A program made the position numbers and the translations under genes. Positions 8,408-13,409 of a DNA stretch of 64,000 nucleotides are shown in pieces. The stretch is from Andreprevotia chitinilytica DSM 18519 (lineage in GTDB: Bacteria; Pseudomonadota; Gammaproteobacteria; Burkholderiales; Chitinibacteraceae). The notes under the pieces are model-generated. The model was not told the origin of the DNA and made no database searches. It saw nothing but the letters and a program-made list of their open reading frames with translations. The stretch is taken from contig NZ_JONM01000006.1 of assembly GCF_000711875.1 (NCBI RefSeq), positions 186,001-250,000 of the forward strand, given 5' to 3'. Numbering within the stretch: position 1 is the stretch's first letter; every line of letters begins with the position of its first letter.

Positions 8408-9094
8408 ATGGACAACCCACACTACATGCGCCGTATCCGCAGCTTCGTGCTGCGCCAAGGCCATCTTTCCGCTGGTCAGGAGCGTGCCCTCAACGAGTTT
8501 GGCCCGCGTTTCTGCATTCCCTATGCGAACGCGCCGCTCGATCTCGATGCCGCCTTCGGTCGTCACGCGCCGCGTGTGCTGGAGATCGGCTTTGGTATGG
8601 GGCAGGCCACGGCGGAAATCGCTGCTGGCCGGCCCGATACCGATTTCCTCGGCGTCGAAGTCCACACGCCCGGCGTCGGTAGCCTGTGCAAATTGATCGG
8701 CGAGCAGTCGCTCACCAATATCCGCATCGTGCAGCACGACGCTGTCGAAGTGCTCGAACACATGCTGCTGCCAGCCTCGCTCGATGGTGCGCATATCTAC
8801 TTCCCCGACCCATGGCACAAGAAGCGCCATAACAAGCGGCGGCTGGTCCAGCCGGCTTTCGTGGCGCAACTGGTGTCGCGCATCAAGCCGGGCGGCTACC
8901 TGCATCTGGCGACCGATTGGGAAGACTATGCGATCCAGATGCTGGAGGTGCTGTCTGCCGAGCCGCAGCTGGAAAACACCGCCGATGGCTACGCGCCCCG
9001 CCCCGACTACCGGCCGCTGACCAAGTTCGAGAATCGTGGCATCAAGCTCGGTCATGGAGTTTGGGACTTGGTGTTCAAGCGTCGCGCTGGCTGA
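8408..9094 (+). CDS. trmB: tRNA (guanine-N7-)-methyltransferase TrmB
   Basis: TrmB methylates G46 in the variable loop of tRNAs using S-adenosylmethionine. The 228-residue sequence shows the SAM-binding motif [13 protein letters not shown] near residues 60-70, FLGVEVH after it, and the family signature [16 protein letters not shown] near 135-150, which holds catalytic and tRNA-binding residues. Start at the ATG at 8408 fits the family N-terminus ([11 protein letters not shown]). The gene is monocistronic in appearance: a hairpin precedes it and a 102-base palindromic element follows its stop. Confidence 0.97.
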
Positions 9095-9127
9095 CTGTAT
9101 GACGAGCGACTAGACTCGCACTATTGC

Positions 9128-9229
9128 GAGCGGCCAATAAAAGCTGCCTGGCGTTGTTCCGCAGTCTTGCCGTACTTGAAGTACTGTCTACGACTGCGCG
9201 CCTAGCCAGGCAACTTTTCTTGGCCGCTC
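9128..9229. repeat. 102-base near-perfect inverted repeat
   Basis: Outer arms 9128-9152 and 9205-9229 pair over 25 bases with two mismatches (GAGCGGCCAA, AAAAG, TGCCTGGC on each side). An inner pair GCAGTC (9161-9166) and GACTGC (9192-9197) and a central GTACTT-G-AAGTAC (9172-9184) continue the symmetry. It sits between trmB and flgP, and could act as a terminator, an RNA structure or a dispersed mobile palindrome. Confidence 0.85.
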
Positions 9230-9312
9230 TCAGCCGAGGATGCCTGTTTCCATATGCAAGAGATTTGCGTGGAGATGCGCCGAGGCCACTTCGATTTGCC
9301 GGAGAAAATCCC

Positions 9313-9918
9313 ATGATTCAGCGCGTACTCCTCTTGTCGCTGCTAGCGGCCGCCTTGGCTGGCTGCAGCTGGTTCAAGCCCGGCGGCTCGTCGGCCCAGG
9401 CGGCCGGCGCACAGCAAACACCCGTCATGTTGCCAAGCCGTGTGACGGCGGTCGGTTACGGCGCATTGCCAAACATGGATGGCTACACCATGGCGCAACG
9501 CCGTTTGCTGGCGATGCGCGCCTCCAAGCTTGATGCGCTACGCGCCTTGGCGGAAACCGTGCACGGGGTGCGGATCACCGGCCAGAGCACCGTCGCCGCG
9601 CTGACACTGCAAAATGACAGCTTCCGCTATTACATCGACGCCTACTTGCGCGGCGCACGCGTACTCACGATCAACCCGCTGCCGGACGGGGCCTACGAAA
9701 CCGTGGTCGAGCTGCAATTGAGCCCGGATTTCTATCGCGATGCCGGTATGGCCCAACAAGGACTGCAAATTGAGTCGCCGCGGGTCGATGGCCAGCCCAA
9801 CCCGGATATTCCTTCAACGGCCCCTGCAGCTACCGCGCCAGCGGCACAGGCTGCGCCGGTTGCCCCGCAGCCGGTATCTGTGGCGTTGCCGGCAAACAAC
9901 TTCTACTACGCACGCTGA
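9313..9918 (+). CDS. flgP: LPP20-family lipoprotein, FlgP-like flagellar outer-ring protein
   Basis: The 201-residue product has a lipoprotein signal peptide with lipobox LAGC (Cys18), so it should be anchored in the outer membrane. Residues about 45-145 form an LPP20-type domain (AVGYGALPNMDGYTMAQRRL, MRASKLDALRALAETVHGV, AYLRGARV). In polar-flagellate bacteria such as Vibrio, FlgP is an LPP20 lipoprotein of the outer-membrane ring around the flagellar base, encoded with flgT and flgO. The next gene here is flgT, which makes the FlgP call convincing. The tail from residue 165 is Pro/Ala-rich. GGAGAAAA five bases before the ATG at 9313 fixes the start. Confidence 0.85.
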   Translation: MIQRVLLLSLLAAALAGCSWFKPGGSSAQAAGAQQTPVMLPSRVTAVGYGALPNMDGYTMAQRRLLAMRASKLDALRALAETVHGVRITGQSTVAALTLQNDSFRYYIDAYLRGARVLTINPLPDGAYETVVELQLSPDFYRDAGMAQQGLQIESPRVDGQPNPDIPSTAPAATAPAAQAAPVAPQPVSVALPANNFYYAR

Positions 9919-9937: not shown

Positions 9938-11275
9938 ATGGCCGCCACTCTGATGCAATCTGCGCTGCGCCGTCTGTTCATGCTGTTGGCTGGTTTGCAG
10001 CTCAGCGTGGCATTGGCGAGTCCGGTCGAAGGCGTTGCGCCGTTCGACGGCAATATCCCCGCCGCGCGCGACGCTGCCATTGCGGATGCATTGCAAAATG
10101 CCGCGCTGTTCAATGGCAGCTCGGTGCGTGCCATTGCATTGAAAGACGGTGATCAGGTCGCCGAAGCGCAGCAGATCCGCTCTGGCGCGGCACCGGGCTC
10201 CTATACGCTGTTGCGTGAATGGCAGGCTGGCGGCCTGTATTACGTCGAGATCGAGCCGGGCAAGCCCGCTCCGACGGCGTTGGCACAGAAGGACGCACAA
10301 AAGGCTCAGTCCACCAAGACGGCCGCGACGCAACCCGCCACCGAACAGCAAGCGCAAAATACCTGCGCCGCCGCCAGTTACCGACGCCGGGCCCTGATCT
10401 CGCCGTTCTGGTTGAGCCAACCCTCACAAGCCAATGACCTTTCCCAAGCCAACGATGGCCTGAAACAACTGCTGGTCGATCGGCTTGGCAATACCGGCCG
10501 CTTTCTTGCCGTGTCGGCGCCGAATGAGTTGCCGTTCGCGCCGGTGATCGGGATTGCCGACCCGCAATTGCAACCGGATCAAGTCCGCCAGCTGGCCCGC
10601 CGCTATGGCGTGCAGTTCGTGGTGGGCGGCATCGTGCGCGATCTATCAACCGAAGGCGAAACGTATCGCCCGGCCTATGGTCAGGAAGTACGCCCAGGTG
10701 AACGCAAGCTCGGCTTGGGCTTGCCGTTGTGGAACTGGCTCGGTGTTGGCATCAAGGCCATGCCGAGCGCACGCAACGTCGATATCGAGCTTTACCTGTT
10801 CGATGGCGTTTCTGGCGCGTTGGTTACCCGTCATCGCGCCCAGCAAGTGGCCAGTGGCGATGTCTTGGGCCGGCAAGGCCAACCGGTCAACAGTGCCAGC
10901 TTCGTGAATAGCGGTATTGGCCACACCATCACCGCCACGCTCGATCAGCTGGCCGCGCAGTTGGCATCCGATGTGTCCTGCATTCCGTTCTCATCGCGCA
11001 TCACCCGCGTCGAGGGCCGGCGTGTTTATCTCGATGCCGGTGCCTTGGCCGGCCTTGCGCCGGGCGACAAGCTGCAGCTGTACCGGCTACGCAATGGCCA
11101 GAGTGTGGAGAGCGGTAACGGTGACACCGCGCAGCGGCTCGGCATGGTCGAAGACTTGGCCGGCAGCCTGTCGATCTTGCAGGTGCAGCCCTTGTTTGCC
11201 ATCGCCCAACCGGATGGCGGGCAAGCCGAAGTGGGCGATTTCGCACGGTTTGTGAGTACGGGGAAGGCCAAATGA
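9938..11275 (+). CDS. flgT: Flagellar assembly protein FlgT-like
   Basis: A 445-residue exported protein. The N-terminus has a signal peptide (RRLFMLLAGLQLSVALA, cleavage near residue 28). Next comes a FlgT N-domain-like part (ARDAAIADALQNAALFNGSSV), a low-complexity Lys/Ala/Thr/Gln linker near 125-145, a middle domain (YRRRALISPFWLSQPSQ through RYGVQFVVGGIVRDLS) and a C-terminal SH3-like domain (GRRVYLDAGALAGLAPGDKLQLYR). FlgT builds the H-ring around the LP ring in Vibrio and stabilises MotX/Y. It is longer than the Vibrio protein (about 375 residues), mainly through the linker. ATG 9938 is used; ATG 9953 is an alternative that still keeps the signal peptide. The stop overlaps the next start (ATGA). 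Confidence 0.82.
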   Translation: MAATLMQSALRRLFMLLAGLQLSVALASPVEGVAPFDGNIPAARDAAIADALQNAALFNGSSVRAIALKDGDQVAEAQQIRSGAAPGSYTLLREWQAGGLYYVEIEPGKPAPTALAQKDAQKAQSTKTAATQPATEQQAQNTCAAASYRRRALISPFWLSQPSQANDLSQANDGLKQLLVDRLGNTGRFLAVSAPNELPFAPVIGIADPQLQPDQVRQLARRYGVQFVVGGIVRDLSTEGETYRPAYGQEVRPGERKLGLGLPLWNWLGVGIKAMPSARNVDIELYLFDGVSGALVTRHRAQQVASGDVLGRQGQPVNSASFVNSGIGHTITATLDQLAAQLASDVSCIPFSSRITRVEGRRVYLDAGALAGLAPGDKLQLYRLRNGQSVESGNGDTAQRLGMVEDLAGSLSILQVQPLFAIAQPDGGQAEVGDFARFVSTGKAK

Positions 11276-11592
11276 AACCGATGATCCGTCCGATGATTTG
11301 CTTGGCGCTGCTCTTGCTGGCTATTCAGACCGTGGCCGAAGCATCCACCGATGCCGAGCTCAAGTGCCGCTGCCCGCGACGAAGCCCGATTAGGCACATG
11401 ACCGTCAAGCGGCCAATGCAACACAAGCCGGTCTTGGCCGCTCCCGCCAAGCCAGTCCAATCGGTCGCCCGCATCGTGATGGAGTCCTCGCCGGAGCATC
11501 CGGTGCTGCCGGTCGCCAAGACGCGCCGTGACGATCCGCAATGGATGGTGCTGACCAGTGAGCAGCGTTGGCAGCAGTACAGCTATCCCTGA
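11272..11592 (+). CDS. Small exported protein of unknown function in the flgPT operon
   Basis: The 106-residue product begins at an ATG overlapping the flgT stop by four bases. It has a clear signal peptide (hydrophobic residues 9-20, cleavage likely after AEA at 21-23). The mature part is very basic and proline-rich with a CxC pair (KCRCPRR) just after cleavage, and it ends DDPQWMVLTSEQRWQQYSYP. I do not recognise the family. It is not a FlgO lipoprotein, the third gene usually seen in Vibrio, as it lacks a lipobox. Its placement suggests a periplasmic part or helper of the flagellar outer ring, which is inference from operon context alone. Confidence 0.75.
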   Translation: MKPMIRPMICLALLLLAIQTVAEASTDAELKCRCPRRSPIRHMTVKRPMQHKPVLAAPAKPVQSVARIVMESSPEHPVLPVAKTRRDDPQWMVLTSEQRWQQYSYP

Positions 11593-11619
11593 CCTCCCGC
11601 GGCTCTTGATCCAGATGCG

Positions 11620-11645
11620 ACACCGGCCTAATGCCGGTGTTGTTA
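11620..11645 (+). terminator. Possible terminator after the flgPT operon
   Basis: ACACCGGC (11620-11627) pairs with GCCGGTGT (11633-11640) around a 5-base loop; the tail TGTTA is only weakly T-rich. Confidence 0.5.
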
Positions 11646-11791
11646 CGTCCGCTTGACCTTTCCCGGCATCTTTGGCTGCACGTCATGGGTCGGCGTGAGT
11701 TGTGCTGCTGCAGCGGGGCGGGCTATGCAGTGATAACTACGCTGACGCAGCAGTCGGAAAATGAATTGATTTCGTCTCCCAAGGATTGCTC

Positions 11792-13246: not shown

Positions 13247-13275
13247 GAATCGTCCCGCCTGTGCATGGTTTTTGT

Positions 13276-13380
13276 CCCCTCTCCCACTTGTGGGAGAGGG
13301 CTAGGGAGAGGGTGACGAAAAGAACACGTCATGTGGCACGACCCTCTCCCCCAGCCCCTCTCCCACAAGTGGGAGAGGGG
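13276..13380. repeat. CCCTCTCCC/GGGAGAGGG inverted-repeat element, copy 1
   Basis: Arms 13276-13313 and 13341-13380 are near-perfect complements, and each arm itself folds (CTCCCAC-TT-GTGGGAG). It lies between convergent gabD and the SPOR gene. Related but partial copies are at 23339-23382 and 43600-43630. Confidence 0.85.
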
Positions 13381-13409
13381 AGACCACCCCACCAGCCCCA
13401 ACCCCCACG

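Follow-up and report, generated by a model that had tools for sequence, protein, structure and literature searches.

A small exported protein with a near-invariant C-terminal end, encoded beside flgP and flgT, is a candidate accessory of the outer-membrane flagellar ring

Results and Discussion

The flgP-flgT locus and its third gene

The window, which is the whole stretch of 64,000 nucleotides that was analysed, comes from a 5.1 Mb draft genome of the genus Andreprevotia. In it flgP, flgT and a third gene follow one another on the same strand, which is the order given in the initial annotation, and the features of the locus are listed below.

9313-9918, + strand: flgP, LPP20-family outer-membrane lipoprotein with lipobox LAGC (PF02169, E 1.9e-8)
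9938-11275, + strand: flgT, periplasmic ring protein with FlgT N, M and C domains (PF16539, FlgT_M, 4.2e-17)
11272-11592, + strand: third gene, 106 aa, product predicted to be exported, basic and mostly disordered (open reading frame, 29 orthologues aligned, purifying selection)
11272-11343, + strand: predicted type I signal peptide, residues 1-24 (read from the sequence; AlphaFold helix 6-24)
11344-11514, + strand: variable Pro/basic-rich middle, including a non-conserved KCRCPRR (alignment A1)
11515-11589, + strand: conserved C-terminal 25 residues (dN/dS)
11566-11589, + strand: C-terminal motif RWQQYSYP-COOH (alignment A1; synonymous codon variation; AlphaFold helix 96-102)
11614-11649, + strand: strong hairpin just 3' of the third gene (-19.8 kcal/mol, z -4.5 versus shuffles)

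A profile made from nine FlgP orthologues matched the solved FlgP chains 8z5n (1.2e-15) and 9yec, although Foldseek with the model of the window's FlgP returned nothing below E 0.001. In the window's FlgT the FlgT_M domain scored above the cut-off and FlgT_N and FlgT_C just below it, and phmmer matched this protein to Vibrio FlgT 3w1e (4e-8) and to 8z5n (1.9e-8); a related-locus search with the FlgT query returned no match. No FlgO above the curated cut-off was found in the window's genome. For Vibrio the initial annotation had given the order flgO-flgT-flgP, but the locus tags imply flgT-flgO-flgP (VF_1885, VF_1884, VF_1883) (PMC6375700). The window's FlgP ends in the aromatic tail NFYYAR (9898-9915), and in most loci compared FlgP commonly ends in such a tail, of the approximate form N-[FY]-[YLFV]-x-x, after a low-complexity linker; the tail is altered in the g9 group of Chitinibacteraceae.

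The open reading frame of the third gene, encoding 106 residues, proved to be a real gene, and its coupling to flgT was confirmed, as its ATG overlaps the TGA of flgT as ATGA at 11272-11275. When the N-terminus of its product, hereafter the third protein, was read by eye, it showed a hydrophobic stretch, A-E-A before S25 and no Cys at a lipobox position, which together with the predicted helix at 6-24 agrees with the signal peptide without a lipobox that had been noted earlier. The third protein is thus probably exported by Sec via a type I signal peptide. The hairpin that follows the gene has a weak T tail and a simple terminator scan made no call there; it is probably the end of the operon.

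The third protein defines a family in Chitinibacteraceae

FlgT was found in all 43 Chitinibacteraceae genomes (GTDB family), and a homologue of the third gene lies immediately after flgT in 30 of them. The expectation that orthologues always follow flgT therefore holds for these 30 genomes but not for the other 13, which all have flgT and lack the third gene. The 30 members make up seven genus-level groups, namely Andreprevotia, Amantichitinum, Chitinibacter, Chitinilyticum, Deefgea, Formivibrio together with a MAG, and one further group. When the search was made with the single window protein, strong matches were obtained only within the genus and those in Chitinibacteraceae were mostly sub-threshold; the family was revealed only through inspection of the DNA after flgT. 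In a search with alignment A1 all 30 members were at flgT and no confident second copy was detected elsewhere. The four-base overlap of the start with the flgT stop is present in 23 of the 30.

The members range from 95 to 247 residues and have a variable, basic, Ala/Pro-rich middle, with K+R exceeding D+E in every one of the 30. Their near-invariant end in alignment A1 is R-W-[QR]-x-Y-[ST]-[YF]-P-COOH, in which only R99, W100, Y103 and P106 are invariant in 30 of 30, and a stretch VRVLPxxxLPxxAxxP is partly conserved in the family and degenerate in the window's copy. The initial annotation had drawn attention to the KCRCPRR pair, but in alignment A1 this is present only in the window's copy, and as it is not conserved it was rejected as a metal or disulfide site of the family. 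Judging from the alignment, the actual hallmark of the family is the C-terminal RW[QR]xY[ST][YF]P.

The dN/dS of the last 25 codons was 0.03-0.13 in groups g9, g7 and g1 and that of the middle was 0.20-0.67, ratios that are rough because several groups are close to saturation at synonymous sites; in g3 the ratio of the last 25 codons was not computable and pN was 0.05. Purifying selection on the third protein is strongest at the C-terminus, and this end is kept while the total length varies. The codons of the motif vary synonymously across the members, and from this variation together with the low dN/dS a frameshift or annotation artefact was rejected. The family is real and is under purifying selection.

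None of the 30 members matched Pfam or NCBIfam, and the PDB gave no convincing match for the family, the best being a centromeric histone at E 0.04, so the description of the protein as unrecognised stands. PF17680 (FlgO) was matched neither by the window protein nor by any of the 30 members. No SHS2 fold, LPP20 domain or FlgT domain was found in the third protein by Pfam or in its low-confidence AlphaFold model, which has only coil between two helices, and Foldseek with this model gave no match.

Related proteins in other families and chance controls

A further 55 FlgT-bearing genomes from the order and the class were examined, and six of them encode a small exported protein beside flgT that ends in W-[QAG]-P-Y-[STA]-[YF]-P. 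Three of these loci are from family f32, two from f14 and one from f166, which belongs to another order; the earlier restriction to Chitinibacteraceae is thus too narrow. In one of the f14 pair the gene comes after flgT and in the other, genome G249, it lies between flgP and flgT. The kinship of these six proteins rests on their ending, size, signal peptide and place because their middles do not align with the window protein, and on these features common descent with the window's family is likely.

Matches to such a short ending can arise by chance, and this was assessed with pattern scans of whole genomes. The DNA pattern for W[x]PY[STA][YF]P followed by a stop matched seven times in 768 genomes, six times beside flgT and once in a 12-codon frame. 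The reversed control pattern matched six times in the same 768 genomes; some matches can therefore be expected by chance, and what counts is their coincidence with flgT. With the pattern RWQxYSYP followed by a stop, 24 matches were obtained in 84,980 species, of which 13 are true members, all of them linked to flgT. The other 11 are outside the family, in no usable frame or in short frames of 2-42 codons, and none is beside flgT. Since the true members in these scans are placed beside flgT, a chance motif was rejected. Orthologues without linkage to flgT had been named beforehand as the finding that would speak against a flagellar partner, and none was seen in the search with alignment A1 or in the scans of the 768 genomes and the 84,980 species.

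Several other features were seen at these loci. In f32 (L206, L191) FlgT is extended at its C-terminus, and the extension contains CDCP or CECP, which recalls the KCRCP of the window's third protein and may be a coincidence. In G249 (L199, 4111-4450) there is a second small lipoprotein ending in GSQFYYQQ, followed by a FlgP without the aromatic tail that is usual elsewhere, and it looks as if the tail of FlgP had been split off into a gene of its own. In G363 (L215, 7146-7623) the WQPYSYP protein is followed by a protein of 158 aa with an N-terminal hydrophobic segment and the ending RGYVFP. A match of the related protein of G363 to polyubiquitin (PDB, 5.5e-4) was discarded because it lies in a low-complexity part and no stretch passes alone.

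The third protein occurs with FlgP

With the FlgP profile, flgP was found to adjoin flgT in all 36 loci that have the third protein. The 59 loci without the third protein comprise 31 with flgP beside flgT and 28 without flgP next to flgT, and thus the third protein occurs in none of the 28 flgT loci that lack flgP. Fisher tests of flgP against the third protein gave 7e-8 for all loci and 9e-6 for Chitinibacteraceae alone (30/0 versus 5/8), values that treat genomes as independent. Because genomes are not independent, pairs were also compared on the FlgT tree, on which the presence of the third protein switches 8 times or more. Of 8 independent pairs, 5.3 on average showed flgP agreeing with the third protein and 0 showed it disagreeing, with a median p of 0.06. 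The association with flgP on the phylogeny is marginal. This co-occurrence points, though not decisively, to a partnership of the third protein with FlgP or the FlgP-FlgT complex. The 31 loci that have flgP and flgT and lack the third protein indicate that in many species the ring does not need it.

Predicted structure and proposed role

AlphaFold was run on 14 orthologues and gave a mean pLDDT of 63. Helices were predicted only at 6-24, the signal peptide, and at 96-102, the motif, and the rest was coil; in the middle of the protein the mean pLDDT was 52-59 per ten-residue block and no secondary structure was predicted. A predicted disordered, basic arm of variable length with a near-invariant eight-residue end is built like a tether that ends in a tail for docking.

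As this unnamed family is found only beside ring genes, the third protein probably belongs to the flagellar motor as a part not described before. The reading that we prefer, and consider reasonably probable, is that it is a disordered protein of the periplasm that acts as an accessory of the outer-membrane ring of FlgP and FlgT and docks there through its C-terminal peptide, the flagellar function being deduced from the genomic context. The third protein would be made together with FlgP and FlgT by way of the start codon that overlaps the stop of flgT, an overlap that is seen directly, and after Sec export it would be soluble and largely unfolded in the periplasm, as its AlphaFold model and composition suggest. 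The C-terminal peptide R/T/S-W-x-x-Y-S-Y-P with its free carboxylate would then dock into a pocket on a ring subunit that is already assembled, and from the co-occurrence the site is more likely to be on FlgP or at the FlgP-FlgT interface than on FlgT alone. That the tail binds the FlgP/FlgT ring is moderately supported. What the arm might contact is speculation; it may reach a negatively charged partner, perhaps the peptidoglycan or the outer membrane on its inner side, and such a contact might brace or space the ring.

The main rival to this reading is a transient role in assembly and not a structural one, which we consider unlikely, though the best placed of the alternatives. The third protein would be a periplasmic escort that prevents premature oligomerisation of FlgP or FlgT or aids their targeting, perhaps by mimicking the C-tail of FlgP (N-F-Y-Y/L-x-x). 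It shares an operon with these would-be clients, it is small, basic and predicted to be disordered, FlgP itself has a conserved aromatic C-tail, and the patchy presence seen on the FlgT tree suits an auxiliary role. However, the two C-tails are only loosely alike, and the third protein is missing from the genera g5 and g6, whose FlgP has retained the same tail. It is improbable that the third protein is a passenger, exported for some unrelated task in the envelope and sharing the operon by chance; its lack of flagellar homology and its absence from 13 of the 43 FlgT-bearing Chitinibacteraceae genomes would suit such a protein, but the linkage is kept across four families and in two gene orders and the protein was never seen unlinked. 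Least probable of all is that WxxYSYP is not a ring-docking peptide but a localisation or retention tag that delivers a flagellum-associated protein to the outer membrane or the surface, as its extreme C-terminal position, its free terminus and a mature body without a predicted fold would allow, because in the 768 genomes the motif is found only beside flgT and a sorting tag of general use would be expected on other cargo too.

Relation to known flagellar rings

Additional rings that surround the flagellar bushing are important for torque and for passage through the outer membrane, and their parts differ between lineages. In the H-ring of Vibrio the third component encoded with FlgP and FlgT is FlgO, an outer-membrane lipoprotein with PF17680. 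The third protein of the window is likewise a third, candidate component encoded with FlgP and FlgT, but unlike FlgO it has neither a Pfam match nor a lipobox. FlgQ of Campylobacter jejuni is predicted to be like a FlgP repeat of two protomers that has a double hairpin (PMC11482838); it too is an outer-ring accessory encoded with FlgP, whereas no such fold is predicted for the third protein. FapH of Helicobacter pylori (HP0838) is a lipoprotein that is encoded beside flgP and forms an extra, 18-fold motor ring, and all FapH homologues examined by the authors have a lipoprotein signal (PMC11756786). Both FapH and the third protein are small exported proteins encoded next to flgP and found by flgP synteny, the one an outer-membrane motor accessory and the other a candidate for such a role. 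By its description FapH is set apart as a lipoprotein ring of Campylobacterota, whereas the third protein has no lipobox and is predicted to be mostly disordered. By analogy FapH appears to be functionally the nearest precedent, and FlgQ and FlgO are looser ones.

We propose a WxxYSYP family of proteins with a signal peptide, small size, a gene that adjoins flgT in a flgP locus, and W-x-x-Y-[STA]-[YF]-P at the stop codon; the window's protein has all of these, its end being RWQQYSYP. What makes the family worth attention is that it occurs only with flgP-flgT and that its near-invariant eight-residue end offers a part that can be tested directly and a defined candidate site for an interaction. 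Betaproteobacteria are hardly covered by the papers that we found on such rings; our literature search found no paper on flgP-flgT in betaproteobacteria, and those found deal with Campylobacterota, Vibrio and other gammaproteobacteria. In 1977, however, microscopy showed a large concentric disk in the betaproteobacterium Aquaspirillum serpens; the composition of this disk is not given in the review (PMC7990780). Aquaspirillum serpens belongs to the order Neisseriales, as does the window's genus, and its disk provides a precedent in betaproteobacteria for a structure of this kind. We tentatively suggest, as something that may well turn out otherwise, that the third protein is a new structural component of an outer-membrane ring or disk of Neisseriales-type betaproteobacteria, in which it would act as a disordered basic periplasmic tether plugging into each FlgP/FlgT repeat via WxxYSYP, and that this ring is possibly part of a concentric disk like that of Aquaspirillum serpens.

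Repeats near the locus

Two repeats were also seen in the window. An imperfect inverted repeat of 28 nt with a gap of 52 nt lies at 9125-9232, after the gene that ends at 9094 and before flgP; it is 89% complementary and occurs as a single copy in the window. After an aldehyde dehydrogenase-like gene there is a facing pair of CTCTCCCACTTGTGGGAGAGG palindromes at 13275-13381, which are REP-like.
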